Shown here piece after piece: positions 6,777 through 35,153 of a DNA stretch of 59,878 nucleotides. The translations under genes and the position numbers were made by a program. Under the pieces are notes generated by a model that saw nothing but the letters and a program-made list of their open reading frames with translations, did not search any database and was not told the origin of the DNA. The stretch is from Terriglobia bacterium (GTDB lineage Bacteria; Acidobacteriota; Terriglobia; Bryobacterales; Bryobacteraceae): contig JAENWC010000142.1 of NCBI GenBank assembly GCA_016650235.1, positions 1-59,878 on the forward strand. The letters run 5' to 3'. The stretch's first letter is position 1. Each line of letters starts with the position of its first letter.

Positions 6777-7775
6777 ATGCCCGCCCCCGAGTTGGTAGAT
6801 ACATTCGGCCGGTTTCACGACAATCTTCGCATCAGCGTCACGGATCGCTGCAACATACGGTGTTTTTACTGCATGCCGGAGACCGAGGTGGAGTTTGTGC
6901 CTCGGGCAGAGGTGCTCAGCTTTGAAGAGATCGAGCGCTTTGCGCGCATCGCCGCACGGTTGGGGGTGAAAAAACTCCGGCTCACAGGCGGCGAGCCGCT
7001 GCTCCGCAAGGACCTGCCGGTGCTGGTGAAGAAGCTGTCCGCCATTGACGGCATCGAGGATTTGGCCATGACCACCAATGGGGTCACACTGGCCTCACAT
7101 GCACAGGCGCTCTACGATGCCGGCCTGCGGCGTATCAACATACACCTGGACACGCTGGACCGCGAGCGCTTCCGCGAAATCACGCGCCGCGACGATTTCC
7201 ACCATGTGATGGAAGGCATTCACGCCTGCCTGCGCATCGGCTACGGGCCCATCAAGATCAACGCCGTGGCCGTGAAGGACTTGGTGGAGCCCGACATCGT
7301 CCCGCTGGCGCGGTTTGGCCGCGAGCACGGAATCGAGGTCCGCTATATAGAGTTTATGCCTCTGGATGCCCAGGGCCTTTGGCTGCGCAACAAGGTGCTG
7401 CTGCAATCCGAGATGCTGGAGATGCTGGCGGAAGGCATCGGTCCGTTGGATGAGATTCCGCCGCAAGACGTGCGCGCTCCGGCTACGGAGTACCATTTTC
7501 GCGATGGTATTGGCAGGGTGGGTTTTATCTCCTCGGTTAGCCGCCCATTCTGCCTCAACTGTAACCGCCTCCGCATCACCGCTGACGGCAAGCTCCGCTA
7601 TTGCCTGTTCGCGATCGAGGAGACGGACGTCAAGACGGCCTTGCGTGACGGATCGAGCGAGGAGCAGATCGTGGAGCTGATACGGTCCACCGTGGCCAGG
7701 AAATGGATTGGCCATGAGATCAACACCACGCAATTTGTTCCGCCGCCTCGGCCCATGTATTCGATCGGGGGATAG
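6777..7775 (+). CDS. moaA: GTP 3',8-cyclase MoaA (molybdenum cofactor)
   Basis: Radical-SAM enzyme for the first step of molybdopterin synthesis, 332 residues. The N-terminal cluster motif is CNIRCFYC (CxxxCxxC) after DNLRISVTDR. GGEPLLRKDLP is the SAM-binding GGE region. The second [4Fe-4S] site is made by CLNCNRLR and the following LRYC. The protein ends in the conserved Gly-Gly tail (YSIGG) needed for radical formation. An in-frame GTG at 6768 would give a GTGA overlap with nadA; either start implies coupling. No other moa genes are in the window. Confidence 0.95.
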   Translation: MPAPELVDTFGRFHDNLRISVTDRCNIRCFYCMPETEVEFVPRAEVLSFEEIERFARIAARLGVKKLRLTGGEPLLRKDLPVLVKKLSAIDGIEDLAMTTNGVTLASHAQALYDAGLRRINIHLDTLDRERFREITRRDDFHHVMEGIHACLRIGYGPIKINAVAVKDLVEPDIVPLARFGREHGIEVRYIEFMPLDAQGLWLRNKVLLQSEMLEMLAEGIGPLDEIPPQDVRAPATEYHFRDGIGRVGFISSVSRPFCLNCNRLRITADGKLRYCLFAIEETDVKTALRDGSSEEQIVELIRSTVARKWIGHEINTTQFVPPPRPMYSIGG

Positions 7776-7776
7776 A

Positions 7777-10143
7777 ATGAGCTTGCGTGAGCCGTTGAAC
7801 CGGTTATACAGTTGCATCGTGAGAGTTTTTCCCGTCCTTGGCCTGTTGCCGGTATTGGGGGCCACGCCCGCCGGAACCGACGCCGCCAAAGAATTCACCC
7901 AATCCATTCGGCCCGTGCTGCAACAGAACTGCGCGGCGTGCCACAATCCCGCGAACCCGAAAAACAAGATCGACTTTCTCAAGGCGGAAACCGTGGATGG
8001 CATTGAGGGGAAGCGAGGCATGTGGCGGAGCGTCGCCATACAGATGCGCAACCGGACCATGCCGCCGGTGGCATCGAAGCTCACCGAGGAAGACCGTCTG
8101 CGGATCGCGGCTTGGGTGGAGAACCGGCTCCGCGAAACGGCGTGCTCCGGGCAGGACTATGCCGGCACCGTGGCGCCCCGGCGTTTGAACCGGCGCGAAT
8201 ACCACAATACGATTCGGGATCTTTTGGGTGTTGACCTGGCGGTGACCGATCTTTTCCCGGCCGACGAATCAGCCGGGGCGGGGTTCGACACCAACGGGGA
8301 GACGTTGTATGTTCCGCCGATGATGCTGGAGCGTTACATGGAAGCGGCGGAAAAGGCGCTGGACCGCGCGATTGTCACGCCCGTGATGAACAAGACGTTT
8401 TCCGCTTCTGAAGTGACCCCGGGCGCGTTCACCCCGATGCCCGGCGGCAAGCCGGGAAGGATGATCGATCCCGGCCAGGAATTAACCGTGGAATTTCCGG
8501 TCTTCGCCGATGGCCAGTACAATCTGCGTGTCTCGGTGGAGCGGCCACGTGAGATTCCCTTTGAGATTGAAGTGAAGCTGGACGGAGTCGCGGTGGGGAA
8601 ACTGGCATACGGCCGCGACCGCAACGGGGGGCCGACCGCCAGAGCCACGCTGGCCAATGTGGATCGCGGCGTTCACAAAGTGACTGTCGTGAACGGCAAG
8701 GAGCCAGTACAGTTCTACAGCTTCTCGGTGGAGCAGAAGCCGCCGGAAGCTTCGCCGGACAAGCGAGCCTTGCACTACCGGTTGTTCGGCCTGGAGGCGG
8801 GTGAGGCGGCGGTGAATCCGCGGGCAGCCGCACGGAGCCTGCTGGCGCGGTTTTTGCCGAAAGCGTACCGGAGTCCGGTGGAGACGGCGGAAGTGGATCG
8901 CTTCCTTGCGCTCTATGACCGCGCCGCCGGGCGCGGCGATCCTTACGAGCAAAGAATCAAACTGGCACTCAAGGCCGTACTTGTCTCCCCCCGTTTCCTG
9001 TTCCGTGTGGAGGAGAGAACCAAGGAGCCGGTGATACGTCCGCTTGGCCAATATGAGATGGCGTCGCGGTTGTCGTATTTTCTCTGGTCCACCATGCCGG
9101 ACGAGGAACTGATGCAACTCGCGGCGCAGGGGCGTCTGCAAGATCCCAGGGTACTGACGCAGCAGGTGGACCGCATGCTGGACGATCCCCGCTCGCGCGC
9201 CTTCTCCTCGGCGCTGACCGGGCAATGGCTCGGCACGCAGGAGGTGGGCGGCCGCGTGGTTCCGTTGCTCACCGAACTGCAGCACTACTACACGCCGGAC
9301 GTCGCCTCGGATCTGCGGCAGGAGCCGGTGCTGCTGTTCCATCACATTCTCTCGGGCAACCGCAGCCTGCTGGAATTGTTGACGGCGAACTACACATTTC
9401 TCACCGAACGTCTTGCGAAGTTTTATCAGGTGGAGGGCAAAGTGTCCGGCCTGGCGGGCGACACATTCCAGCGCGTCGAGTGGCCCGATGACCGCCGCGC
9501 CGGAATTCTGGGATTGGCCTCGGTGCTGGCGATGACGTCGCATTACAAGCAGGGAAGCCCTGTGCTGCGCGGGGCATGGGTGCTGGATACGCTGCTCGGA
9601 ACACCCGTTCCTCCGCCGCCGCCCGATGTGCCGCCGCTGGAGAAAGCTTCCAAGTCCGAAACCGGCCTCACTATGCGGCAGATTCTTGGCCGGCATCGCG
9701 AAGATCCGTCCTGCGCCACTTGCCACAACCTGATGGATCCGATCGGCTATGGCCTGGAAAACTTCGACTGGATGGGCCGTTGGCGCGATTCGGAAGCAAA
9801 CGGCGCTCCTGTCGATGCGACCGGCGTGCTGCCGTCGGGCGAAAAATTCAACGGACCAGTGGAACTGCGTAAAGTGCTGGTCGACCGAAAAGACGATTTC
9901 CTCGCGCACTTCACCGGCAAGGTGCTGGGCTTCGCTCTCGGCCGCGGCTTGCAGGACGGCGACCAATGCACTATACAGCGTTTGACAGAGATGTTGAAAA
10001 AGGATAACTACGGCGCGCGGACGCTGATCCGTGAAGTGGTGCTCAGTGTAGCGTTCCGGAACATGCAGGGTGGGCTGGAGGTTTCGAGCACTGCCGCCCC
10101 AGCGCCCAAACGCAGCAACCGCCGCCTGCTCGGCGAGAAGTGA
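7777..10143 (+). CDS. Secreted PSCyt1/DUF1587-DUF1595-DUF1592-DUF1588-DUF1585 protein
   Basis: Large exported protein (788 residues) of the 'planctomycete cytochrome' type. After a leader with hydrophobic core around residues 14-30 comes a c-type haem motif CAACH (C52-H56) with the RTMPP segment that typically follows. Next is DUF1587 (RRLNRREYHNTIRDLLGVDL), then a beta-rich part that may bind carbohydrate (VFADGQYNLRVSVE), then DUF1595 (LLARFLPKAYRSPVETAEVD), DUF1592 (GQYEMASRLSYFLWSTMPDE), DUF1588 (GILGLASVLAMTSHYKQGSP) and DUF1585 (GARTLIREVVLSVAFRN). A second CxxCH (CATCHNLMDPIG) lies near residue 645. The biochemical role of this architecture is not established. A DUF1552 gene follows by 30 bases, its usual partner. 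Confidence 0.93.
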   Translation: MSLREPLNRLYSCIVRVFPVLGLLPVLGATPAGTDAAKEFTQSIRPVLQQNCAACHNPANPKNKIDFLKAETVDGIEGKRGMWRSVAIQMRNRTMPPVASKLTEEDRLRIAAWVENRLRETACSGQDYAGTVAPRRLNRREYHNTIRDLLGVDLAVTDLFPADESAGAGFDTNGETLYVPPMMLERYMEAAEKALDRAIVTPVMNKTFSASEVTPGAFTPMPGGKPGRMIDPGQELTVEFPVFADGQYNLRVSVERPREIPFEIEVKLDGVAVGKLAYGRDRNGGPTARATLANVDRGVHKVTVVNGKEPVQFYSFSVEQKPPEASPDKRALHYRLFGLEAGEAAVNPRAAARSLLARFLPKAYRSPVETAEVDRFLALYDRAAGRGDPYEQRIKLALKAVLVSPRFLFRVEERTKEPVIRPLGQYEMASRLSYFLWSTMPDEELMQLAAQGRLQDPRVLTQQVDRMLDDPRSRAFSSALTGQWLGTQEVGGRVVPLLTELQHYYTPDVASDLRQEPVLLFHHILSGNRSLLELLTANYTFLTERLAKFYQVEGKVSGLAGDTFQRVEWPDDRRAGILGLASVLAMTSHYKQGSPVLRGAWVLDTLLGTPVPPPPPDVPPLEKASKSETGLTMRQILGRHREDPSCATCHNLMDPIGYGLENFDWMGRWRDSEANGAPVDATGVLPSGEKFNGPVELRKVLVDRKDDFLAHFTGKVLGFALGRGLQDGDQCTIQRLTEMLKKDNYGARTLIREVVLSVAFRNMQGGLEVSSTAAPAPKRSNRRLLGEK

Positions 10144-10173: not shown

Positions 10174-11556
10174 ATGACTGTAAAAAACCGGCTTTCCCGT
10201 AGAACGTTGTTGCGTGGCGTGGGCGCGGCGGTCTCGCTGCCTTGGCTCGAATCGATCTCGTCCGGAGCGCCTGCTACCGTTGGCGAGAGCCTTACTGAAC
10301 CGCCATTGCGAACGGCGTTTATGTTCATGCCCAATGGTGTGCGGCCCGACTATTGGGCGCCTGCCGGTGACGGCGAGGACTATGAAATCACGCATCATCT
10401 GAAACCTCTGGAGAGCTTGAAGAGCGAATTTCTGCTGATTGAGAATCTGTGGAACAAGAATTCGGTGGGCCGTAACGGCCATTGGCCGAAGGTGCCGGCG
10501 TGGCTTTCCGGCGGTTTTGTCGAGCGGACCACGGGCGGGGACCTGGACTCCGGCGGCGCCACTGTGGATCAGGCGGCGGCGCGGCATATCGGTTCTGAAA
10601 CTCCGCTTCCGTCCCTCGAGCTTGGACTGGACCCGCCGCGCACAGGAATAGACACCGCGGGCGGAGGATTTCCCCGCGCGCTTGGTTCTTTCCTGTCCTG
10701 GTCCGATCCACAGACCCCGGTCCCGAAAGAGATTGTTCCGCAACTGGCTTTTGACCGGCTGTTTCGCAACAGCAAAGCGCGCGTGGTTTCCGGCGCCGAT
10801 CCCAAGCATCCGTCACTGCTCGACTCGCTCCAGCGCGACGATGCAAGCGTACTGGATCTGGTCCGCGATCAGGCGCAATCGCTGCGGAAGGCCGGCAGCA
10901 AGGACGATCAGGCGCGGCTGGACGAGTACTTCGAGTCGGTGCGCTCAGTGGAAAAAAGGCTGGACGCGGCGCTGCGCCCGCAAAAACGATGGATCAATCA
11001 AGGGAAGTTCCCGCTGGAGCGCCCCGCGCCCGGGATTCCGGATACGCATTTCGAACATAAGCGCTTAATGCTGGACATTCTGATTCTGGCTTTCTGGACG
11101 GACAGCACCCGTATCGCGACGTTCATGCTGGGCGATGCGCAGAGTTCTCAGGACTACTCATTCCTTGCCGGCGTGAGAGGAAACTGGCATGGTATTTCGC
11201 ATCATCGCGATATCGTGACACAACGCGAGCAGTACGAAAAGATCATCAACTGGAACATGGAGCAGTTCGCCTATTTCCTGAACCGGCTGCGCAGCCTGAA
11301 GGAAGGTGGCACGACGCTGCTGGACAATTCGATGATCCTGTTCGGCGCAACGCTCAAGGACGGCAACCGCCACGATCCGGAAGATCTTCCGGTGATTCTG
11401 GCGGGCCGGGGCAAAGGCGCGCTGCGTCCGGGAAGACGCATACGGGCAGCGAAGCAAACGCCGCTGTGCAATCTGCACCTGGCCCTGCTGCACCGAATGG
11501 GGATCAAGGAAGCCTCGTTCGGCGACAGCACGGGTGTGCTGCAAGGGCTGTCTTAA
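10174..11556 (+). CDS. DUF1552 domain protein, Tat-exported
   Basis: Protein of 460 residues, partner of the DUF1592-type gene upstream. It has a twin-arginine leader (SRRTLLRGVGAAVSLPWLES) and then the DUF1552 pattern: FMFMPNGVRPDYWAP, FLLIENLWNKNSVG, GGATVDQAAARHIG, FWTDSTRIATFMLGDA, and near the end LGDNS-like text (TLLDNSMILFGATLKDGNRH). DUF1552 and DUF1501 are related to alkaline phosphatase/sulfatase folds, but no activity is proved. An AAAGGAG sits about 13 bases before the ATG. The two genes almost certainly form one transcription unit. Confidence 0.93.
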   Translation: MTVKNRLSRRTLLRGVGAAVSLPWLESISSGAPATVGESLTEPPLRTAFMFMPNGVRPDYWAPAGDGEDYEITHHLKPLESLKSEFLLIENLWNKNSVGRNGHWPKVPAWLSGGFVERTTGGDLDSGGATVDQAAARHIGSETPLPSLELGLDPPRTGIDTAGGGFPRALGSFLSWSDPQTPVPKEIVPQLAFDRLFRNSKARVVSGADPKHPSLLDSLQRDDASVLDLVRDQAQSLRKAGSKDDQARLDEYFESVRSVEKRLDAALRPQKRWINQGKFPLERPAPGIPDTHFEHKRLMLDILILAFWTDSTRIATFMLGDAQSSQDYSFLAGVRGNWHGISHHRDIVTQREQYEKIINWNMEQFAYFLNRLRSLKEGGTTLLDNSMILFGATLKDGNRHDPEDLPVILAGRGKGALRPGRRIRAAKQTPLCNLHLALLHRMGIKEASFGDSTGVLQGLS

Positions 11557-18068: not shown

Positions 18069-19136
18069 CTAGGCAGTTAGTAAGTCGAGCACGGCGCTGG
18101 CAACTTGTTTTGTCGTGGCCGAGCCGCCCAGGTCGGGAGAAAGCGCCGCCCCGCCCGCAAGCGCCGCGGCAATGGCCAGTTCCACCGCTTGTCCGGCCTC
18201 CGCCTCGCCCAGATGATCGAGCATCATGGAGGCGGAAAAAAACGTGGCCAGCGGATTGGCGATGCCTTTCCCTATGATGTCGGGCGCTGTGCCGTGGACC
18301 GGTTCAAACATGGAAGGATGCCGGCGCAGTGGGTCAAGGTTCGCGCTGGCGGCCAGCCCGATGCTGCCCGTGACCATCGCTGACAGGTCACTCAGGATGT
18401 CACCAAAGAGGTTCGAGGCCACTACTACGTCAAATGTGTGAGGCCGTCGCACAAAGTTCATCGCCGCCGCATCCACCAGCAGGGATTCGGTGGCAATGTC
18501 CGGGAATTCGGCGGCGACGGCTTGGAAGGTGCGGTCCCACAGAACCATGCTGTAGCCTTGCGCGTTGGACTTTGTAATGGAGGCGACGCGTTTCTTCTTG
18601 TTGCGCCTGGACGCAAGCTCAAAGGCGTAGCGGATGATGCGCTCGCAGCCGTGGCGGGTGAAGACCGAGGTCTGCACGGCCACCTCTTCCGGCATCTGAT
18701 GATAGAGAAAGCCGCCGATCTGCGCGTACTCGCCTTCCGTATTCTCACGTACCACCACCATGTCAATGTCGCCGGCCTTGCGGCCTGCCAGCGGCGAATC
18801 GACGCCTTTATACAACACGGCCGGACGCACGTTGGCGTACAGGTCAAAGCCGCGGCGTATGGGCAGCAGCAGGCCGTTGAGGGTAACGTTGTCGGGAAGA
18901 TCGGTATGGCCCACCGCGCCCAAGAGAATGGCGTCGTGGGGGCGCAACTGCTCCAAGGCATCGGCGGGCATCATGCGGCCGTGCTGAAAGTAGTAGTCCG
19001 CGCTCCAGTCAAAATGACGCCACTCAAAGGCCAAACCAAAGCGCCTTCCGCATGCTTCCAGCACCTCGATAGCCGGAGGAATCACCTCCCGGCCGATTCC
19101 GTCTCCTGGAATCACTGCAATGGAAAAATGTTTCAT
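18069..19136 (-). CDS. Tartrate/D-malate dehydrogenase-like decarboxylating dehydrogenase
   Basis: NAD-dependent beta-decarboxylating dehydrogenase (isocitrate/isopropylmalate superfamily), 355 residues. It opens with IAVIPGDGIGREVIPPAIEV. DWSADYYFQHGRMMPADAL, AILLGAVGHTDLPDNVTLNG and LLLPIRRGFDLYANVRP match the tartrate dehydrogenase/D-malate dehydrogenase branch rather than LeuB. The catalytic ENTEGEYAQIGG, the Lys in SITKSNAQG, and the metal-binding Asp residues of NLFGDILSD are present. EPVHGTAPDIIGKGIANPLA is the cofactor loop. Substrates of this branch include tartrate, D-malate and related 2-hydroxyacids. The 5' end overlaps or abuts the divergent gene at 19135-19174. Confidence 0.88.
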   Translation of the reverse strand: MKHFSIAVIPGDGIGREVIPPAIEVLEACGRRFGLAFEWRHFDWSADYYFQHGRMMPADALEQLRPHDAILLGAVGHTDLPDNVTLNGLLLPIRRGFDLYANVRPAVLYKGVDSPLAGRKAGDIDMVVVRENTEGEYAQIGGFLYHQMPEEVAVQTSVFTRHGCERIIRYAFELASRRNKKKRVASITKSNAQGYSMVLWDRTFQAVAAEFPDIATESLLVDAAAMNFVRRPHTFDVVVASNLFGDILSDLSAMVTGSIGLAASANLDPLRRHPSMFEPVHGTAPDIIGKGIANPLATFFSASMMLDHLGEAEAGQAVELAIAAALAGGAALSPDLGGSATTKQVASAVLDLLTA

Positions 19137-19173
19137 GATAGGATTTCACTCAAAGGACCTCATCATAACAAAA

Positions 19174-21156
19174 GTGCACCAAGCCCTGATTCTGCTCGCT
19201 CTCGCTCTGTCTGCGTTCGCCGATGAGGAGCCCGCATCGCAACCAGCCGCTGTGCAGCATCGTCTGCCGGTGATTTCGCGCGTCTTTCCGCAGGGCTGGC
19301 AACCAGGGACGAGCCTGGAAGTAGAGATCCTGGGCGAACACCTTGACCGCGCCAGTCAGGTAGTCTTCCTGGATTCTTCCATTACCGGGCGCATTCTCGA
19401 AGTGTCCGTCACCCGGGCCTTGCTGCAATTCGAGATTGCGGCCGGCGCGGCATTGGGAGAACACTATTTCCGCGTGATCAGCCCGCGCGGCGCCTCTGGT
19501 CCGATGCTGTTCCGTATCGGGGACCAGCGGCATCGGAACGAGAAGGAACCCAACTCGAGGATGGAGGAGGCGGAGCGGATTGACGCTCCAGTGACCATCA
19601 ACGCCCGGCTGGAGCGCGACTCCGATTTCGACTTTTTTCGGTTCCATACCGAAGCCGGGCAGCGATGGATCTTCGATTTGCGCGCGGCGAGAAACGGCAA
19701 CGGTCTGGACTCGGCCCTGATTCTGCTGGACGCGCGGGGCCGCAAGCTGGAGCATGTCGAGGATCACTTCATCTGGGATCCGTTTTTCGCGCACACCTTC
19801 ACTGAGGCGGGCGATTATACAGTGGTGGTGCAGCCGTCGCATACGCGCAATGATCCGAACTTTACCTATCAGCTTGACGTGCGGCAGGCCGCCTACTTGC
19901 AAACGATTTCCCCACTCAGCCTGGCTCCGGGTAGCGAAACTGAGGTGACGGTGTTTGGGGAAGGATTGTCGGACGGGAGCGCGAGGCTGTGGTTCGATGC
20001 GGCGGGACTGTCGGGGCGCCTGTTGCAGGCACGGGGCAATTCCGCTTTGGTGCAACTGCGTGTGAGCCCGGATGCCAAGCCAGGCCCTCATCGGATGCGT
20101 TGGGATAGCCGTGGGATGTCCAATCCGGCTACGTTGCTGGTGGATGCAACGCCTGCCCACAAAGCCGGTGACGAGATCACGATCCCGGTTTCCATCACAG
20201 GAACCGCGCGCTACCGCCAGCCGGAGCGGTTCCAGTTCCAAGCCGAAGCGGGCCAGACGCTTGTGTTTGAGGTGCGCGCGCAGCGTTTCGGATCGCCAGT
20301 GGATTCGATGCTGCGCATTCTGGATGCGCAGGGAAAGGCGATTGCCAGCAACGATGACGCCACCGTTCCCGGCGTGGCGTTCAACAAGGATTCGCGCATC
20401 CGGCACAAGTTCGAAAAGGCCGGTCAGTACACGGTGGAGATGCGCAATGTTTCGGCGGTAACAGGGGAGAACTACCCGTATCAACTTCTGGTGATGCGCC
20501 CGCAACCATCGGTGGAATTGATGTTCGCCACCGATCAACCCTACCTGTACCCGGGCGAGACCCGGAAGTGGAAGGTGAATGCCGTGCGCCAGGATGACTT
20601 TGCGGGCGACATTGAACTGGTTGTGAACGGCCTGCCGGCGGGCGTGGAAGCAAAGCCGGCGCGTATCGCAGAGGGATCGAGTGATGTTGAGATCGAGTTG
20701 CGCGCAATGGGAGCGGCAGTGGGAACCTACGCCGCCATCGAGGTGACCGCCTCCCAGGCACAGTCGCCGGCGTGGCGCTCGGCCAGGATTTCCAGCGGCG
20801 GTGGGGAAGGCGCGACGTTCGCGCGGGTGAATCGCGCGGCATTGGTGGTGGCCGAGAAACCTTTGTTTTCGCTCGAAGCCGCCGCCACCAGCCTGAACCT
20901 GGTGCGCGGCGGAACGGCGGAATTGAAAGTGATGGTACGGAGGCAGCCCGGTTTTGAAGGCGTCGTCACATATCAGGCCGCCAACCTCCCGGAAGGGGTT
21001 CGCGTGGAAACGGTCTCCTCCGGCGCAGAAATAGCGGTACTGCGATTCCATGCCAAGCCAGATGCGAGAATAGGACGAGCCTCGCGCGTGGCGATACTGG
21101 GCGCCGGCGCCGGGCAAACACAAGAAGCTCCCAAGATATCATTGTTAGTGGATTGA
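19174..21156 (+). CDS. Secreted protein with PPC (pre-peptidase C-terminal) domains
   Basis: Exported protein of about 660 residues, first of a three-gene cluster. I place the start at GTG 19174 because a signal peptide begins there at once (HQALILLALALSAFA). ATGs at 19135 and 19120 are alternatives that overlap the divergent gene. Two PPC-type beta-sandwiches are visible, at LERDSDFDFFRFHTEAGQRW and again at RYRQPERFQFQAEAGQTLVF. IPT/TIG or Ig-like strands are interspersed (VFPQGWQPGTSLEVEILGEH, SLAPGSETEVTVFGEGL). No catalytic motif is visible, so it is probably a structural or binding partner. The next gene starts 3 bases after its stop. Confidence 0.85.
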   Translation: MHQALILLALALSAFADEEPASQPAAVQHRLPVISRVFPQGWQPGTSLEVEILGEHLDRASQVVFLDSSITGRILEVSVTRALLQFEIAAGAALGEHYFRVISPRGASGPMLFRIGDQRHRNEKEPNSRMEEAERIDAPVTINARLERDSDFDFFRFHTEAGQRWIFDLRAARNGNGLDSALILLDARGRKLEHVEDHFIWDPFFAHTFTEAGDYTVVVQPSHTRNDPNFTYQLDVRQAAYLQTISPLSLAPGSETEVTVFGEGLSDGSARLWFDAAGLSGRLLQARGNSALVQLRVSPDAKPGPHRMRWDSRGMSNPATLLVDATPAHKAGDEITIPVSITGTARYRQPERFQFQAEAGQTLVFEVRAQRFGSPVDSMLRILDAQGKAIASNDDATVPGVAFNKDSRIRHKFEKAGQYTVEMRNVSAVTGENYPYQLLVMRPQPSVELMFATDQPYLYPGETRKWKVNAVRQDDFAGDIELVVNGLPAGVEAKPARIAEGSSDVEIELRAMGAAVGTYAAIEVTASQAQSPAWRSARISSGGGEGATFARVNRAALVVAEKPLFSLEAAATSLNLVRGGTAELKVMVRRQPGFEGVVTYQAANLPEGVRVETVSSGAEIAVLRFHAKPDARIGRASRVAILGAGAGQTQEAPKISLLVD

Positions 21157-21159
21157 AAT

Positions 21160-23562
21160 ATGAGACTTAGCTGCCTGTTCATGATTACTTTGCTGCTGGA
21201 GGCCGCGCCTCCAGTCAGCAAGTTGACGATTCTTCCGGCCAACCCGCTGCTGTTCGGCAAGGACGCTACACAGCGTCTCATTGTAATTGCCAATTATGCG
21301 GACGGCTCCACGGCGGAGGTGACCGCGCAGGCGGCGCTGGTTTCTGAGAGACCAGGCGTGGCCTTGTTGCAAGAGGGCGCAACGGTGCGCGCGGTCTCCG
21401 ACGGCGGTGCGGCGATACGGGCGCGGTATCAGGGGATCTCCGCGGTGACTACAGCACTGGTGCAGAAAGCCGGGACCGTGTTGCCGGCCAGCTTCTCCGG
21501 CAACATCCTGCCGATCCTTACCAAGTACGGATGCAGCGGCGGATCCTGCCACGGAGCCTTGAACGGGAAAAACGGTTTCAAGTTGTCCTTGTTTGGTTAC
21601 GACCCGGAAGCCGATTTCCAGATGATCACCAGCGCACACGAGGGGCGGCGCCTGGATCGGGCCAACGCGGAAAACAGTCTGCTGCTGCGCAAGCCGTCCT
21701 TTGAAGTGACACACGGCGGCGGCAAACTGCTGAAGAAGGATTCGCCCGACTACGCGGCGCTGGCTGGTTGGATCAGGGCAGGAGCGACGCGGAATCCTTT
21801 GGAGGATCGACGCATCACCCAATTGCGTGTTTTGCCGGAAACCAACGTTCTGTCCGGCAAGGATGCCAGCAGACAGTTGCTGGTGCGGGCGCGCTACAGC
21901 GACGGCACCGAGGGCGACGTAACGCATCTGGTGCAGTTCAGCTCGAACGACGATACTATCGCTGCCGTGTCGCGGGCGGGCGTGATGAAAGCCCTGCGGG
22001 GCGGCGAGACTGCCATCGTCGTACGTGCGCCGGGCCTCACCGCGGCCGTTAAGGTGGGGGTAGTGGCCGGGAACAGCGCGGCGGCAAGGCTGGAGGAGTA
22101 CAACTTCATTGACCGCCATGTGGGCGCCAAGCTGAACTCGCTGCGCATTCCGGCATCGCCGCTGGCCGATGATGCAACGTTTTTGCGCCGGGCGTTTCTG
22201 GACATCATCGGATTGATCCCGGCCGCGGAGGAGGCGCGCCGATTCCTGGCGGACCAGGCGCCGGACAAGCGGACCAAACTGGTGGACGCATTGCTGCGTC
22301 GGCCCGAGTATGCCGATTACTGGGCCATCTATTGGGGCGACCACCTGAGTAACACGCGGCAACTGCTCTACAACAAAGGTCCGTATACTTTCTCGCGCTG
22401 GCTGCATGACGGGTTCCAAAAGAACATGCCCTACGACCAGTTTGCTCGAGAGTTACTGGTGAGCACGGGCAACATGTATGACGCTCCGGCAACCAGTTAC
22501 TATCCGCTGATGCGCAAGGAACTGGACCTGGCCTCGATGACAAGCCAGCTATTCATGAGCGTGAGCATTGAGTGCGCGCGGTGCCACAACCATCCGCTGG
22601 AAAAGTGGACGCAGGACGACTTCAACGGGATGGCCGCGGTGTTTTCCCAGGTGCGCTACAAATCAGCCGGTCCTCGTAACAACGAGCGCATCCTCTATCT
22701 CGACTTCGCGCGGCAGTTCCAGAATCCAGACACCAACCAAAAGTATCTGGCCAAAGCGCTGGGCGGTCCGTACTTTAAGGATGGCGATTTCGTGGACCAT
22801 CGTGAACAACTGGCCGATTGGCTTACCTCAAAGGATAATCCGTTCTTTGCGCGTTCCATTGTGAACCGGATGTGGCATAACTTCTTCGGGCGCGGTTTTG
22901 TGGAACCGGTGGATGACTTCCGGACTACCAACCCGCCGACTAATGAACCGCTGCTGGATGAGTTGGCGCGCGACTTTGCCGCGCACGGCTTCGATCTGCA
23001 TCACCTCATCCGGCGGATCACCGCCTCGCGGACCTATCAAACCTCGGCCGTTCCCGTGCCTGGTAACAAAGAAGACAAGATGGCGTATTCACGCTACTAT
23101 CCCAAGCGCCTGGGCGCCGAACCGCTGATGGACTCCATCGCCTTGGCTACCGGAAGCCTGGACGAGTTTGTTTCGCTTTATCCGGGCACGCGGGCCATGC
23201 AGATACCGGATCCGGAGATCGTATCTTATTTCCTGGATGTGTTTGACCGGCCCTCGCGCCAGTTGATCTGCGAGCGTAAGAATACGCCGACGCTGAACCA
23301 GGCGCTGCATCTGGTCTCGAGCGATTCCATTCAACCGAAGCTGGCCGACCCGCGCGGCAATCTCGAAAAATGGTCGCGGTCCGGCCTGCCGCCGGAGAAG
23401 GCCGTGGAAGAAATGTACCTGGCCACCCTGAGCCGCTTTCCCGACGCGGAGGAGCGCAAGATGGCCGTCGATGCTGTGGCAAAGGCGGGTGGCGCGCGAA
23501 GCGGCCTCGAGGACGTCTTCTGGGCTCTTCTCAGCAGCAAGGAATTCCTCTACAATCATTAA
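21160..23562 (+). CDS. Secreted DUF1549/DUF1553 (PSCyt2/PSD1) protein
   Basis: Exported protein of 800 residues. A leader (MRLSCLFMITLLLEAAPPVS) is followed by an Ig-like domain (LTILPANPLLFGKDATQRLI) and then the PSCyt-like segment GCSGGSCHGALNGKNGFKLS, a CX4CH haem-like motif typical of this family. A second Ig-like repeat follows (LRVLPETNVLSGKDASRQLL). The DUF1549 domain is marked by FIDRHVGAKLNSLRIPAS, FLRRAFLDIIGLIPAAEEAR and CARCHNHPLEKWTQDDFNG, which contains a true CxxCH. DUF1553 follows (NPFFARSIVNRMWHNFFGRG, PTLNQALHLVSSDSI). It sits between the PPC gene and DUF1501 gene, the classic order. Biochemistry is unknown. Confidence 0.93.
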   Translation: MRLSCLFMITLLLEAAPPVSKLTILPANPLLFGKDATQRLIVIANYADGSTAEVTAQAALVSERPGVALLQEGATVRAVSDGGAAIRARYQGISAVTTALVQKAGTVLPASFSGNILPILTKYGCSGGSCHGALNGKNGFKLSLFGYDPEADFQMITSAHEGRRLDRANAENSLLLRKPSFEVTHGGGKLLKKDSPDYAALAGWIRAGATRNPLEDRRITQLRVLPETNVLSGKDASRQLLVRARYSDGTEGDVTHLVQFSSNDDTIAAVSRAGVMKALRGGETAIVVRAPGLTAAVKVGVVAGNSAAARLEEYNFIDRHVGAKLNSLRIPASPLADDATFLRRAFLDIIGLIPAAEEARRFLADQAPDKRTKLVDALLRRPEYADYWAIYWGDHLSNTRQLLYNKGPYTFSRWLHDGFQKNMPYDQFARELLVSTGNMYDAPATSYYPLMRKELDLASMTSQLFMSVSIECARCHNHPLEKWTQDDFNGMAAVFSQVRYKSAGPRNNERILYLDFARQFQNPDTNQKYLAKALGGPYFKDGDFVDHREQLADWLTSKDNPFFARSIVNRMWHNFFGRGFVEPVDDFRTTNPPTNEPLLDELARDFAAHGFDLHHLIRRITASRTYQTSAVPVPGNKEDKMAYSRYYPKRLGAEPLMDSIALATGSLDEFVSLYPGTRAMQIPDPEIVSYFLDVFDRPSRQLICERKNTPTLNQALHLVSSDSIQPKLADPRGNLEKWSRSGLPPEKAVEEMYLATLSRFPDAEERKMAVDAVAKAGGARSGLEDVFWALLSSKEFLYNH

Positions 23563-23587
23563 CAGGCCTGATCAAGGAGCGTAGTTC

Positions 23588-24895
23588 ATGCGAGTCAATA
23601 ACCATACCGATATTTTTGGCCGGCGCGATCTTATGCGCATCGGCTCGCTCGGCGCGCTGGGGCTGAATTTGCCGGGCTTTCTGCGCGCCGCCTCCACCGC
23701 CTCATCAACTGGGGATAAGCCGAAGAAGGACATCTCGGTGATCCTGCTTTGGCAGAGCGGCGGCTGCGGGCATCAGGACACCTTCGACATGAAGCCGGAT
23801 GCCCCGCTCGAGTATCGCGGCGAGTTCAAGCCGATTTCGACCAACGTGCCGGGCATCCAGATCTGCGAGCACCTGCCGCGCACGGCCAAGGTGATGGATA
23901 AGGTGACGATACTGCGTTCCTTGCGGTCACGGGAGAACAATCACGAGCGCGCCATCAATTATCTGTTGACGGGCTATCTGCCGCTGCCCACCATCGAGTT
24001 TCCCAGCATCGGGTCTGTCGTAGCCAAAGAGCTTGGCCCGAAGAACGGCATGCCGCCCTACGTCGCGGTGCCGAACACATTCCCTTCCTACGGCGGCGGT
24101 TATTTGGGCGGCGAATACAATCCGTTCATTTCGGGCGATGCCAATGTGACCAGCTACAAGGTGCGCGACCTTACACTGCCCACCGATGTGGACTGGACCC
24201 GGCTCGGCAACCGGCGTCACCTGGTGGAGCAGATGGATCGTAAGTTTCGCGCCATCGAAGCAAGCGAGGATTTCAAGGCGTTGGACGGATTCTACCAGCG
24301 AGCCTACGACTTGATCCGATCACCGGCGGCAAAGAAAGCTTTCGACATCGAAAGCGAACCGGCCGCATTGCGCGAACGCTACGGCCGGACTCCGGTGGGG
24401 CAGGGCGCGCTACTGGCGCGCCGGCTGGTGGAGGGTGGAGTTCGATTTGTGACGGTGGCCAAGGGCTGGCTGAACTACGACACGCACGGGGACAACTTCA
24501 ACACGATGAAGAAGGTCCTGCTCCCGGAATGGGACCCGGCTTTTGCGACGCTGGTGGAGGACTTGGCCCAGCGCGGCATGCTCGACACAACCCTGGTGAT
24601 CTCGACGGGCGAGTTTGGGCGCACACCCAAGGTGAATGACGGGGCCGGGCGCGATCATCACAACAAGGCATGGTCGGTGGTGTTTGCCGGCGGCGGATTG
24701 ACCGGAGGCCGTGTGATCGGCGCAACGGATAAGACGGCCACCGAGGTGACCGATACGCCGGTGGAGCCCGAAGATCTGCTCTACACCATCTATTCGATGA
24801 TGGGCGTGGACCCGGCCCGGGAGCACCACACCTCCATTGGCCGGCCGGTGAAAAACGTAAATGGAGGCAAGTTGATTCCAGGGCTGATAGGGTAG
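23588..24895 (+). CDS. DUF1501 domain protein, Tat-exported
   Basis: Protein of 435 residues with strong AAGGAG eight bases before the ATG. A twin-arginine leader (FGRRDLMRIGSLGALGLNLP) is followed by the DUF1501 pattern: ISVILLWQSGGCGHQDTFDM, RSLRSRENNHERAINYLLTG, VGQGALLARRLVEGGVRFVT, WLNYDTHGDNFNTMK, and LVISTGEFGRTPKVNDGAGR then DHHNKAWSVVFAGGGL. The Asp/His pattern near the end is that of alkaline phosphatase/sulfatase-like folds. It is 25 bases after the DUF1549/DUF1553 gene, with which DUF1501 is almost always paired. Confidence 0.94.
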   Translation: MRVNNHTDIFGRRDLMRIGSLGALGLNLPGFLRAASTASSTGDKPKKDISVILLWQSGGCGHQDTFDMKPDAPLEYRGEFKPISTNVPGIQICEHLPRTAKVMDKVTILRSLRSRENNHERAINYLLTGYLPLPTIEFPSIGSVVAKELGPKNGMPPYVAVPNTFPSYGGGYLGGEYNPFISGDANVTSYKVRDLTLPTDVDWTRLGNRRHLVEQMDRKFRAIEASEDFKALDGFYQRAYDLIRSPAAKKAFDIESEPAALRERYGRTPVGQGALLARRLVEGGVRFVTVAKGWLNYDTHGDNFNTMKKVLLPEWDPAFATLVEDLAQRGMLDTTLVISTGEFGRTPKVNDGAGRDHHNKAWSVVFAGGGLTGGRVIGATDKTATEVTDTPVEPEDLLYTIYSMMGVDPAREHHTSIGRPVKNVNGGKLIPGLIG

Positions 24896-26485: not shown

Positions 26486-27133
26486 AGAGTTATCCTCCTC
26501 TTCACCTCAGTTGATCTCTTAACCTCGGTTGAGCTTACGCTTGCGCCGCGAGCGCGACGCACACGCGTCGAACTCAGCATAGCTCAAAGATTTTGGTCTG
26601 GGAACCAGCAAAACGCCTTAGAGAGATCAGGGGGCTGAACCTACAGTCGCCGCGCAGGTACCCGACTTGTCGGGCGCGTTACTCTAAGGGCGGAACGTGT
26701 TCGCTGCAACAGACGCCCGAATGACCGCTGCCAGCGTTTCGATTTTCGGAGTGCGGTTGGCCGAATCGGGCGCCCACCGCTGCCGGCCTCGGGAGCGGCT
26801 CCAGCTCCGACCGCCGGAAGGCGTCAAACTGAACACCTTGCTCCCTTATTTCTTCGATCAGCCAAGAGGAGGCAACCCTGTCTGCATCCCCGTACCGCGC
26901 ACCCCCCACCCGCGCGATCCAACGCTGTGATGTAATCTAGTCACAGAATGGGTGCCGCAGATCATTTCGTCTCTACGTTGAAGGTGTTCCGACATCGCGC
27001 CGCGGCTGCTGGATTGCGAGTGAACGCATGCCGCGCGATTGTTTTGCCGCCCCCACCGCTTTTGAGGAAGCCGCTCACAACGCAGCCGCGGGCGAGTTTG
27101 CTTGCGTGTAATGAAGTGACAGGAAAACGCTCT
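26486..27133. other. Intergenic region, divergent promoter space, no clear gene
   Basis: This 650-base gap separates the divergent subtilase and PQQ dehydrogenase genes. It contains a direct repeat ACCTC(A/G)GTTGA at 26504-26514 and 26522-26532, 18 bases apart, just upstream of the subtilase. A perfect short stem CCCGAC/GTCGGG occurs at 26661-26674. Small open frames are present on both strands but have no ribosome sites or recognisable content. I see no RNA gene. Confidence 0.5.
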
Positions 27134-29482
27134 ATGTCCGACAACCAGACGTCAGCCCTACCGCCCCCAATCCTCCTCATCGCGGCGATCCTCCTGAGTT
27201 CGGCAGTATTGGCGCAAAATCTTCCGCCAGCCACTTCCGCGGCGGAAGTCAAAGAAACCTACGCCAAACTTTGTGCCGGATGCCATGGAGCCGACGCCCG
27301 GGGTACGCAGCAAGGTCCGGGGCTTGCCGGAAACCTCAATGTACGCCGGCGCTCCATGCAGAGCCTGCGGAACGTTATCCTCAAAGGCATCCCCGCGGCC
27401 GGCATGCCGCCGTTCGATCTACCCGCCCCCACCATCGATGCGCTGGCGGGTCTGGTTGTATCGCTCAATGCCTCGGCCGCCGCAACCACCGTCCCCGGCG
27501 ACCGCACGGCCGGCAAAGCGTTTTTCCTTGGCCAGGGACAATGCGCTTCCTGCCACATGGTCTCCGGCGGCGGCGCGCCCATCGGCCCCGACTTGTCAAA
27601 CGTGGCCCTCGAAATGACCACCGGCCAGCTTCGCGAGGCGTTGCTCAACCCCAGCGTACACATCGCCGCCGGCTACGGTCTGGTGACGCTCCAACTGCAC
27701 GACGGCCGGACGCTGCGTGGATTCACACGCAACCGAACCCGTTTCGACATTGCCGTCCAGGATCTGAATGGCCGGATTCACCCTCTCTCCCTCGATCAGG
27801 TAGCCAGTGTCACCGAGGAGAAATCCTCGCTGATGCCGGCCGTGAAAGCTTCCGCCGATGAGCTTCAGAATCTCATCGCCTACCTGAGCGGGTTGACCGG
27901 AGTGAAGCCTCAAGCAACAGCCGCGCAGCACCCGCCCGCGCCGGGCGGTATTGATTTCTCCGCAATCCTGAACCCGAAGCCAGGCGACTGGCTGACCTAC
28001 AACGGAAACCTCAGCGGAAACCGTTACAGCCGGCTGACGCAAATCAACGCGTCCAACGTCAACAAACTCGCGCTCAAATGGACTTTCTCCATTCCCCTGT
28101 GGACGCAGTTCCTGCCGGACACTCCCTATTACCGCGAGAACATGCGGTACTTCGGACTCGAAACCGTTCCCCTCGTCGCGGACGGCATCATGTACGTCAC
28201 CGGGCCGAATCAGGCCTTTGCGCTGGATGCGCGCACCGGGCAGCAGATCTGGCACTACTCGCGCCCGCGCACTCCTGGTCTGGTCTCGGATCCCTCGCTC
28301 GGCTCCAATCGTGGCGTAGCCTTGCTCGGCGACAACGTCTTCATGGTGACGGACAACGCGCATCTGATTGCCCTCAACCGGGTCACCGGACGTCTGGTCT
28401 GGGACGTCGTCATGCCCGACGAGCCGCAGCGCTACGGCGGAACCGTCGCCCCACTCATCGTAAAGGACATGGTGATTGCGGGCGTGGCCGGAGGAGACTG
28501 GGGAATCCGCGGATTCCTTGCCGCATACAAAGCCGCTACCGGCGAGCGTGTCTGGCGCCATTGGACCGTTCCCGCCCAAGGTGAACCGGGGATTGAGACA
28601 TGGGTAGGAACGGGGTTCACCCTTGGCGGCGGCGGCACCTGGCTGACCGGTTCTTACGACCCGGGAACCGATACCCTTTTCTGGGCCACCGGCAATCCGT
28701 GGCCGAATTCGGACGATCGCGAGCGCGGCGGCGACAACCTGTTCACGAATTGCGTCCTGGCGCTCGATCCCGCCACCGGAAAACTGAAGTGGTACTACCA
28801 GTTCACGCCCCACGACGTTCACGACTGGGATGCGACCGAGCCCAACGTCCTCGTCGATGCGAACTATCAAGGACAGCCGCGAAAACTCCTTCTGCACGCC
28901 GACCGGAACGGCTTCTTCTATGTCTTCGATCGCACCAACGGTCACCTTCTGCTGGCGAAATCGTTCATGCACCGGGTCACGTGGGCGAGCGGAATCGGCG
29001 CCGACGGCCGTCCCGTGCGGCTGCCGCCAACTGATCTGAGCTGCCCCGATCACGCCACCAATTGGAATGGCACTGCCTTCAGCCCGCTCACGCGCCTCTA
29101 CTACGTCATGGCCACGGAGAAGTGCACGGTGAAACTCCTTCCCGGAAGCTGGAAGACGGCGCGTCCCCCGGAGGACCCGGGAAAGAAATATCTGCGCGCA
29201 CTCGATATCGAGACCGGGAAGATCGCTTGGGAAATCCCTCAAGTCGGGCCAATAGACGGCAAAAGAGTAGCGGGCATCCTAGCCACGGCTGGAGGGCTGC
29301 TCTTCTACGGCGATCCGAGCGGCTACTTCCTGGCCGCCGGCGAGCGCGACGGCAAAACGTTGTGGCGCCTCCCGCTGAACGCCACCATCAAAACCTCCCC
29401 GATGACCTATTCCGTGGGTGGACAACAGTTCATAACTCTTGCCGTGGGTTCGAACATTATGTCCTTCGGACTGCCGCAGTAG
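27134..29482 (+). CDS. PQQ-dependent dehydrogenase with two N-terminal cytochrome c domains
   Basis: Periplasmic quinohaemoprotein of about 782 residues. The leader ends near residue 28. Two cytochrome c domains follow, with CAGCH (47-51) and CASCH (137-141), then a segment of about 90 residues and the eight-bladed PQQ propeller from about residue 270 (DWLTYNGNLSGNRYSRLTQI). The catalytic/calcium Asp motif is read in PHDVHDWDATEPNVLVD. Tryptophan-docking repeats are visible (GQQIWHYSRP, GKIAWEIPQV, GKTLWRLPLN). The adjacent Cys-Cys pair of classical alcohol dehydrogenases is not seen; the region reads DPSLGSNRGVALL. I chose ATG 27134 with AGGAAA upstream. It probably oxidises an alcohol, aldehyde or sugar. 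Confidence 0.9.
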   Translation: MSDNQTSALPPPILLIAAILLSSAVLAQNLPPATSAAEVKETYAKLCAGCHGADARGTQQGPGLAGNLNVRRRSMQSLRNVILKGIPAAGMPPFDLPAPTIDALAGLVVSLNASAAATTVPGDRTAGKAFFLGQGQCASCHMVSGGGAPIGPDLSNVALEMTTGQLREALLNPSVHIAAGYGLVTLQLHDGRTLRGFTRNRTRFDIAVQDLNGRIHPLSLDQVASVTEEKSSLMPAVKASADELQNLIAYLSGLTGVKPQATAAQHPPAPGGIDFSAILNPKPGDWLTYNGNLSGNRYSRLTQINASNVNKLALKWTFSIPLWTQFLPDTPYYRENMRYFGLETVPLVADGIMYVTGPNQAFALDARTGQQIWHYSRPRTPGLVSDPSLGSNRGVALLGDNVFMVTDNAHLIALNRVTGRLVWDVVMPDEPQRYGGTVAPLIVKDMVIAGVAGGDWGIRGFLAAYKAATGERVWRHWTVPAQGEPGIETWVGTGFTLGGGGTWLTGSYDPGTDTLFWATGNPWPNSDDRERGGDNLFTNCVLALDPATGKLKWYYQFTPHDVHDWDATEPNVLVDANYQGQPRKLLLHADRNGFFYVFDRTNGHLLLAKSFMHRVTWASGIGADGRPVRLPPTDLSCPDHATNWNGTAFSPLTRLYYVMATEKCTVKLLPGSWKTARPPEDPGKKYLRALDIETGKIAWEIPQVGPIDGKRVAGILATAGGLLFYGDPSGYFLAAGERDGKTLWRLPLNATIKTSPMTYSVGGQQFITLAVGSNIMSFGLPQ

Positions 29483-33557: not shown

Positions 33558-35153
33558 ATGATTCAAACGGGGAACCGTCCCAGCAGTTATGGATTGTGCG
33601 AACATGGCCTCCGGGATTGGGCCGGAGCGCACTGGAACTTGAGCGCGGCGCGCTTGGTGGAAGAGGCACTTCGGCGCAACGAAGGTAGACTCGCACACAA
33701 CGGAGCGCTGGTGGTGGAGACGGGCAAATTCACCGGCCGCTCCCCCCAGGACAAGTTCATTGTCCGCGATGGCCTCACAGAAAATACCGTTCATTGGGGA
33801 CCGGTCAACCAGGCCATCACCGCGGAGAATTTTGAAAGACTCCACGCCAAAGCCGTCGAGCATCTCAAAGGCAAAGAGCTTTTCGTTGAGGATCTGCGGG
33901 CTGGAGCCGATCCCGATTATTCACTGGCGGTCCGCGTCATCACCACGCTTGCCTGGCATAATCTGTTTGGACGCCAGTTGTTGATTCGTCCCGATCCGGA
34001 ATCGCTCGACAATCACGTCCCCGGCTTTACTATTATTTTTGCGCCCGAATGCCAGGCCGATCCCGCCACTGATGGCGTTAACTCGACCACGGTCATCGCC
34101 GTCAGTTTTACGCGCAAAGTGGTTCTCATCATGGGAACCTTCTACGCCGGCGAGTTGAAGAAATCCGTTTTTACAATTCTGAACCACCTGCTCCCCGATC
34201 GCGGCGTTTTTCCGATGCACTGTTCGGCCAACATCGGCCCCGCGGGCGACGTCGCTCTCTTTTTCGGGCTCTCCGGAACCGGCAAGACCACTCTTTCAGC
34301 CGACCCTGTCCGGCGTCTGATTGGCGATGATGAACATGGCTGGTCGAGCGCCGGCGTGTTCAACTTTGAAGGCGGCTGCTATGCCAAATGCATCCGGCTG
34401 TCGCGGGAGAACGAGCCGCAAATCTGGAACGCCATTCGCTTTGGCAGCGTGCTCGAGAACGTCGTCATGGATCTTGCCACAGGCCGGCTCGATTTCGATT
34501 CCGACAAGCTCACCGAAAACACCCGTGCCGCGTACCCCGTCGACTACATCGACGACGCTGTCATCCCCGCCATCGCCGGCCATCCCACCAATGTTGTCTT
34601 TCTCACAGCCGATGCCTTCGGTGTCCTGCCCCCCATTTCCAGGCTCACCCCGGAAATGGCCATGTTTCATTTTTTGAGCGGCTACACCGCCAAGCTCGCC
34701 GGCACCGAGCGCGGCCTCGGCGTGGAGCCCCAGCCCGACTTCAGCGCCTGCTTCGGAGCTCCCTTCCTGCCGCGCCACCCCGAAGTCTACGCAAGAATGC
34801 TGGGCGATAATATGCGGCGTCATCAAGTAAGTTGCTGGCTGGTGAACACCGGATGGGTTGGCGGAGCTTACGGCGTTGGCCAGCGCATCAAACTGTCCTA
34901 CACGCGCGCCATGGTCAACGCAGCCATCGCCGGACAGTTGGACAGTGTCCCTGTGACGCCGCATCCTGTCTTCCAGGTTCTGGTGCCGCAATCCTGTCCT
35001 GGTCTACCGGACGCAATACTCGATGCCGCGTCACAGTGGCAGGACCCGGCGGCATATGACCAGGCGGCCGCTGCCCTCAGCCGCCGTTTCCAGGAAAATT
35101 TTGAAAAGTTCGGCGCACTGGCCTCGGAGATTGTTGGCGCCGGTCCCCGCTAG
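33558..35153 (+). CDS. pckA: Phosphoenolpyruvate carboxykinase (ATP)
   Basis: Gluconeogenic enzyme that converts oxaloacetate and ATP to PEP, ADP and CO2; 531 residues, the usual length for the ATP type. The start at 33558 opens with MIQTGNRPSSYGL. TGKFTGRSPQDKF is the oxaloacetate-binding region, and GLSGTGKTTLSAD is the kinase-1a P-loop near residue 237. FNFEGGCYAKCIRL is the metal and kinase-2 region and ENTRAAYPVDYIDD the adenine-binding stretch. Its stop shares the CTAG tetramer with the stop of the opposing sulfatase gene. Confidence 0.97.
   Translation: MIQTGNRPSSYGLCEHGLRDWAGAHWNLSAARLVEEALRRNEGRLAHNGALVVETGKFTGRSPQDKFIVRDGLTENTVHWGPVNQAITAENFERLHAKAVEHLKGKELFVEDLRAGADPDYSLAVRVITTLAWHNLFGRQLLIRPDPESLDNHVPGFTIIFAPECQADPATDGVNSTTVIAVSFTRKVVLIMGTFYAGELKKSVFTILNHLLPDRGVFPMHCSANIGPAGDVALFFGLSGTGKTTLSADPVRRLIGDDEHGWSSAGVFNFEGGCYAKCIRLSRENEPQIWNAIRFGSVLENVVMDLATGRLDFDSDKLTENTRAAYPVDYIDDAVIPAIAGHPTNVVFLTADAFGVLPPISRLTPEMAMFHFLSGYTAKLAGTERGLGVEPQPDFSACFGAPFLPRHPEVYARMLGDNMRRHQVSCWLVNTGWVGGAYGVGQRIKLSYTRAMVNAAIAGQLDSVPVTPHPVFQVLVPQSCPGLPDAILDAASQWQDPAAYDQAAAALSRRFQENFEKFGALASEIVGAGPR

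Follow-up and report, generated by a model that had tools for sequence, protein, structure and literature searches.

Genes for PSCyt2 (DUF1549) proteins and DUF1501 proteins are recurrent neighbours in Planctomycetota and Verrucomicrobiota, with no function assigned to the pairs (He et al., 2017, PMC5615132). A 'DUF1501 module' is ascribed to Kamneva (2012) in the passages of PMC4960237 and PMC4452313 that cite it. WD40 genes adjoining DUF1501 were noticed earlier in Planctomycetes (PMC5587647), and DUF1800-DUF1501 pairs are known, e.g. with a bacterial chitin synthase (PMC5122149). The present analysis concerns a related three-gene unit of a Terriglobia bacterium (Acidobacteriota, Bryobacteraceae; assembly GCA_016650235.1, a 6.08 Mb draft, 86% complete). 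It lies on contig JAENWC010000142.1, whose 59,878 nucleotides constitute the window. The unit has the Pfam domains and the adjacency of the described PSCyt2/PSD1-DUF1501 pairs, on the same strand with a 25-base gap. What sets its PSCyt2 clade apart is an additional PPC/TIG protein, joined in relatives by a PSCyt1-WD40 protein, and a CX4CH-type PSCyt1 domain that stands between two Ig domains in the PSCyt2 protein. The unit is a variant of a known, uncharacterised gene pairing, and the PPC member is what is added. A first-pass annotation had called the system undescribed. This may hold for the PPC member, but PSCyt2+DUF1501 pairs, WD40-DUF1501 neighbourhoods and the 'DUF1501 module' have been described before (PMC5615132, PMC5587647, PMC4960237). 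Within a partial coverage of the literature, no paper was found on the PPC member, on a histidine at the nucleophile position of DUF1501, or on the DUF1800-PSD1 and DUF1501-DUF1552 relationships.

Three open reading frames on the forward strand form the unit. Gene 1 (19120..21156, 678 aa) encodes a PPC/TIG beta-sandwich protein, gene 2 (21160..23562, 800 aa) a PSCyt2/PSD1 (DUF1549/DUF1553) protein, and gene 3 (23588..24895, 435 aa) a DUF1501 protein with a predicted alkaline-phosphatase-superfamily fold. The same reading frames and gaps, 3 bp between genes 1 and 2 and 25 bp between genes 2 and 3, had been listed in the first-pass annotation. Leader-like N-termini are present on all three proteins. 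The start of gene 1 is ambiguous: the ATG at 19120 is the first in frame, while the later GTG at 19174 gives 660 aa and immediately precedes the hydrophobic leader VHQALILLALALSAFA.

The three genes form one unit that is kept together across about six phyla, and the initial description as a single three-gene unit is borne out by an adjacency that persists across phyla and across gene orders. Two genome sets were compared. The first comprised 61 genomes, the own genome and 60 relatives; in the second, one genome per GTDB species was scanned and 80 loci were obtained, which by their record titles belong to Acidobacteriota, Planctomycetota, Verrucomicrobiota, Armatimonadota (including Abditibacteriales), Poribacteria and Hydrogenedentota. 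Gene neighbourhoods were collected piece by piece and their genes called with a simple codon model, which leaves small genes and precise start positions uncertain. The PPC-PSCyt2 association recurs among the 61 genomes. Fifty relatives were unbroken, with at least 3.5 kb present on either side, and partners were counted in the same-strand run. The PSCyt2 gene is accompanied there by PPC in 39, by DUF1501 in 42, by WD40 in 37 and by all three in 30 cases. A neighbour analysis in which PPC is not conserved with the DUF pair had been named as refuting the proposal; the PPC gene is kept with the pair (39/50). Among the GTDB loci, 51 of 52 PPC homologues adjoin a PSCyt2 gene. Complete units occur in at least five gene orders: DUF1501-PPC-PSCyt2-WD40, PPC-PSCyt2-DUF1501, DUF1501-PSCyt2-WD40-PPC, WD40-PPC-PSCyt2-DUF1501 and PSCyt2-DUF1501-PPC.

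The own genome holds 44 DUF1501 and 40 PSCyt2 matches. Homologues of the PPC protein were found in just four places, all adjoining PSCyt2 genes of one clade. In contrast, the unbroken members of another PSCyt2 clade of this genome have DUF1501 (12/12) and neither PPC nor WD40 (0/12 each; Fisher p 6e-7 for PPC against 39/50). PPC presence and absence cluster on the PSCyt2 tree, with 22 changes versus 42.8 in shuffles. The unit stands on the cross-phylum neighbour counts, the reverse association, the shuffled orders and the contrasting clade; cross-genome adjacency rules out the PPC gene as an unrelated bystander. Pairwise distances of the three proteins correlate (Mantel rho 0.62, 0.69 and 0.50; 0/999 permutations), a correlation to which shared descent contributes. 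Identity to the nearest orthologues decreases from DUF1501 (71-76%) over PSCyt2 (57-68%) to PPC (42-61%), a gradient that fits a catalytic heart with a variable surface. Many relatives carry an extra fourth gene, whose product joins a PSCyt1 cytochrome domain to a WD40 propeller; this gene is absent from the window unit and its nearest orthologues. A second, more distant PSCyt2 clade with PPC occurs in related genomes (L121-L124, L131), in the order PSCyt2-DUF1501-PPC.

The gene 3 protein matches the Pfam family DUF1501 with E 4e-101. Its N-terminus, GRRDLMRIG followed by a hydrophobic stretch, is twin-arginine-like, as had been indicated by the label 'Tat-type'. The structure model (pLDDT 87, pTM 0.84) was matched by VIA-align to NPP phosphodiesterases, PafA and sulfatases with Z 18-20 and rmsd 3.0-4.4 A over 240-280 residues, which assigns DUF1501, on the model, to the alkaline-phosphatase-superfamily fold. 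A reference profile of ten sulfatases from the surveyed loci, including the window's own sulfatase, showed homology in the C-terminal motif region (E 6e-9), where the D-N-G of the sulfatases is replaced by E-F-G. In a forced global hhalign alignment with this profile, the formylglycine cysteine stands opposite His119 (23942..23944, +), with the TG anchor nine residues further (H-X8-TG versus C-X-P-S-R-X4-TG). Asp298-X-His300 (24479..24487, +) are probable metal ligands. The segment from Glu342-Phe-Gly-Arg345 to Asp356-His357 (24611..24658, +) has Glu-Phe in place of the Asp-Asn/His metal dyad of the superfamily. His119, Asp298, His300 and His357 are invariant in the 135-136 DUF1501 sequences compared, DUF1800-paired ones included, with 136/136 for His119, Asp298 and His300; Glu342 and Arg345 are almost invariant. 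The protein had been introduced as a sulfatase-fold partner. The fold was retrieved, but the catalytic cysteine and the Asp-Asn dyad are missing. A canonical S1 sulfatase was rejected, as the CxPxR formylglycine motif is lacking, with His119 in its place throughout, and the Asp-Asn of the calcium site (DNG) is replaced by Glu342-Phe343-Gly. S1 sulfatases, NPP and PafA share the fold, whereas DUF1501 has an invariant histidine for their catalytic Cys/Thr and Glu-Phe for their Asp-Asn/His. Because the sulfatase residues are replaced and the replacing site is invariant, DUF1501 is not a canonical sulfatase, nor is it plainly an inactive protein.

The gene 2 protein combines PSCyt2/DUF1549 (E 7e-47) and PSD1/DUF1553 (E 1e-48) behind one leader, scoring 160 and 166 bits where the cut-offs are near 29, and additionally matches Big_2. 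Its AlphaFold2 model (pLDDT 89, pTM 0.89) and Ig matches divide the chain into the leader, an Ig-like domain (residues 19-102), a cytochrome-c-like domain (112-206), a second Ig-like domain (219-302) and a helical core (316-800). The Ig parts match S-layer and LigA domains. For the helical core no known fold was matched, the Foldseek and VIA-align lists being filled by Ig domains, and this is no sign of a new fold. A sequence search for solved relatives of the unit proteins returned just Ig domains and weak sulfatase motifs. Two heme motifs were located by alignment, a CX4CH attachment motif in the N-terminal PSCyt1-type domain (residues 125-131; 21532..21552, +) and a CXXCH motif in the PSCyt2 domain (residues 472-476, CARCHNHP; 22573..22587, +). 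C125, C130 and H131 of the former and C472, C475, H476 and also H478 of the latter are invariant in 48 sequences, in agreement with the early reading of both motifs as cytochrome-like. Residues 105-213 share homology with the PSCyt1 domain found in the WD40 proteins (hhalign E 2.7e-12), and the CX4CH aligns to the CXXCH of PSCyt1 domains with two additional residues between the cysteines. His185 of an H-G-G-G stretch (21712..21714, +) is likewise invariant in the 48 sequences and aligns at most two columns away from the Met-Pro-Pro ligand loop of PSCyt1. On the profile alignment and this invariance, His185 is proposed as distal heme ligand. The CX4CH domain is, as judged from the alignment, a PSCyt1 cytochrome with the Met loop turned into His-Gly-Gly, and bis-His ligation would be the natural reading for its heme.

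A parallel module is located upstream in the window. It consists of a helical cytochrome partner with DUF1587/1592/1588/1585/1595 and an N-terminal cytochrome c (7708..10143, +; the start may be 7855) and of a DUF1552 (HXXSHH) partner (10174..11556, +), both assigned by Pfam. DUF1501 aligns to DUF1552 with hhalign E 2.6e-12 over 361 columns, and PSD1 to the PSD2 (DUF1585) part of the parallel cytochrome protein with E 1.9e-6; a control comparison of PSCyt2 with sulfatases gave E 0.47. The two modules had been regarded as two versions of the same kind. Both partners are homologous, but the pair at 7.8-11.6 kb has no PPC gene and differs in domain order and heme placement. Since the PPC gene belongs to one group of clades, the modules are, by sequence comparison, cousins and not copies. 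In one relative (L073; G055 contig C771) a PSCyt3-type gene (hmm score 1504) was found 0.5 kb upstream of a PPC-PSCyt2-DUF1501 unit, and both module types can hence stand adjacent.

The DUF1800-DUF1501 pairs follow a similar arrangement. The Pfam model of DUF1800 matches several PSCyt2 proteins at their PSD1 end, with scores over its curated cut-off, by which PSD1 and the C-terminal half of DUF1800 are homologues. The claim rests on these matches, as hhalign alone is moderate (E 2e-4, probability 45%); a DUF1800 match to the PSCyt3 profile (E 0.018) was not used. DUF1501 lies within 1.5 kb of 18 of 20 DUF1800 genes in the relatives. DUF1800 was found in 43 of the 61 genomes searched. Of 14 control genomes, just two contain DUF1501, and DUF1800 occurs in those same two. 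DUF1800 was not found in the own genome, which may be a gap of the 86% complete assembly; a genome of the same genus (G001) has it. Unlike the PSCyt2 protein, none of the 20 DUF1800 partners bears a heme motif. The homologies of DUF1501 with DUF1552 and of PSD1 with PSD2, the DUF1800-PSD1 matches, the adjacency and the control genomes together point to one partner logic, an alkaline-phosphatase-fold protein with a homologous helical protein, heme being optional.

The gene 1 protein is, on its profile matches, a fast-evolving string of beta-sandwiches. Pfam and NCBIfam place a TIG domain at residues ~50-119, a PPC-like domain at 158-239, a TIG/quinohemoprotein-alpha-III-like domain at 260-326 and a PPC domain at 371-440. 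The TIG and quinohemoprotein-alpha-III-like domains exceed the Pfam cut-offs, the PPC match is slightly below (25.3 vs 25.9 bits), and the NCBIfam DVUA0089-family model is exceeded. Gene 1 resembles quinohemoprotein amine dehydrogenase in a domain that passes the cut-off for alpha-subunit domain III, and the make-up of cytochrome, propeller and beta-sandwich is reminiscent of that enzyme. However, gene 1 reaches 27 bits where the equivalog cut-off is 274, by which an alpha-subunit identity was rejected, and the catalytic subunit was not found. The resemblance is one of generic TIG/Ig fold.

What seven orthologous loci have in common with the window is the unit genes; none of the flanking genes is shared. 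In a tally of 138 proteins that flank the unit in relatives, no family occurs more than four times (beta-lactamase superfamily 4, sulfatase 3, xylose-isomerase-like 3), and no glycoside hydrolase family is among the top 25. Neither glycan-active enzymes nor sulfatases recur near the unit, and a polysaccharide utilisation locus was rejected. The sulfatase and PQQ dehydrogenase that had been added to the system are both present in the window, but they lie outside the unit, with which neither is conserved. The sulfatase (35150-37009, -) carries a CAPARTTLISG motif ~10 kb from the unit. The PQQ-type dehydrogenase (26948-29482, +) has two heme motifs; the NCBIfam model that fits it best, 'acido-empty-quinoprotein group A', gives 480 bits, under the cut-off of 650. 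On the other side, a tartrate dehydrogenase gene (18069-19136, -; TIGR02089 above cut-off) is divergent from the unit, with starts overlapping or nearly so. At the closest orthologous locus (L061; G024 contig C112, 3425-12372), a PQQ/BamB-type beta-propeller-like gene directly follows the unit, and a 1072-aa Oar/TonB-type receptor-like gene precedes the PPC gene at a distance of 13 bases.

An exported redox complex with several hemes, centred on a DUF1501 metal site, with docked partners and a PPC/Ig scaffold, is tentatively favoured, at somewhat less than an even chance. The three genes would encode one exported protein complex. The DUF1501 subunit would be folded in the cytoplasm and then exported by the Tat route, and would hold a metal at His119/Asp298/His300/Glu342/His357, where a substrate is bound or converted. 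The PSCyt2 protein would dock on it via the PSD1 helical domain, the part in common with DUF1800. Electrons would pass through the bis-His CX4CH heme and the CXXCH heme and, in relatives, onward to the WD40/PSCyt1 cytochrome; the window copy would represent the form without this cytochrome. The PPC/TIG protein and the Ig domains may serve as scaffold and recognition surface, and the numerous paralogous sets per genome may serve different substrates. The conserved unit, the heme motifs, the fold and the invariant site are observed; complex formation, metal site, electron flow and PPC role are inferred. Several observations weigh against this redox complex. It is drawn from genes, motifs and single-protein models. 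Locus L061, whose PSCyt2 protein is 68% identical, has no DUF1501. Solo PPC/TIG homologues without PSCyt2 (370-535 bits) occur in related genomes (L125-L129, L133-L137), several of them in one conserved context adjoining a peptidase-like gene of ~450-460 aa. The heme-free DUF1800 partners indicate that partnership with DUF1501 does not in itself require redox chemistry. Most of the genomes are draft metagenome-assembled genomes, and some gene absences may be assembly gaps.

Other explanations were weighed on the same data. The unit may be a structural or adhesive cell-surface assembly of Ig/TIG/PPC/WD40 blocks with stabilising hemes and a DUF1501 pseudo-enzyme, as suggested by the numerous beta-sandwich, Ig and propeller domains, the S-layer and LigA matches, the replaced DUF1501 nucleophile and metal dyad, and the DUF1800 partners without heme. 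This is unlikely, as the replaced DUF1501 site and both heme motifs are invariant, not decayed, and point to chemistry. Similarly improbable is the surface machine for polymer use put forward in the first-pass annotation, in which a sulfatase-like DUF1501 hydrolase and the cytochrome would act on sulfated or complex glycans, the latter oxidising them, and PPC would bind the polymer. The fold match to sulfatases and phosphodiesterases, the sulfatase 10 kb away and sulfatases near the units of two loci (L114, L115) speak for it. DUF1501 without CxPSR, the rarity of sulfatases and glycoside hydrolases among the flanking proteins, and the lack of a flanking gene common to the orthologous loci speak against it and leave the proposal unsupported here. 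A carbohydrate link has been argued for some lake Verrucomicrobia, in which PSCyt genes have sulfatases and carbohydrate-binding domains in their vicinity (He et al., 2017, PMC5615132), and on that argument other clades may have a polymer role.

A third view keeps DUF1501 as a metallo-hydrolase or transferase with His119 as nucleophile (phospho- or sulfo-histidine), the partner providing specificity or docking and the cytochrome coupling to the redox state. His119 occupies the sulfatase nucleophile position, the homologue DUF1552 retains a histidine at the same alignment place, and D298/H300/H357 resemble the first metal site of the superfamily. Against this, with Glu-Phe instead of Asp-His/Asn the second metal site is incomplete, the nucleophile mapping depends on the forced global alignment, and we know of no alkaline phosphatase superfamily member with a His nucleophile. 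This view seems quite improbable. Chance clustering of unrelated exported genes could account for the solo PPC homologues and for PSCyt2 genes without PPC. It has a negligible probability and is already refuted by adjacency conserved across phyla in shuffled order, by the reverse association of PPC with PSCyt2 (51/52), and by orthologous loci that have just the three unit genes in common.

DUF1501, DUF1549/1553, DUF1592 and DUF1800 belong to the function-unassigned exported proteins with the highest copy numbers in Planctomycetota, Verrucomicrobiota and Acidobacteriota. A broader extension of the redox complex is doubtful. By it, DUF1501/DUF1552 would be an alkaline-phosphatase-fold class with a histidine at the nucleophile position, always accompanied by a homologous helical docking protein (DUF1800/PSD1/PSD2), and the heme-bearing PPC/WD40 form would be a new multi-subunit exported oxidoreductase in about six phyla, with dozens of copies per genome. 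The one partner logic, the four-gene unit, the invariant residues and the heme-domain change open specific tests for these DUFs. If the redox reading is true, a large overlooked class of exported enzymes would exist in soil and aquatic bacteria.

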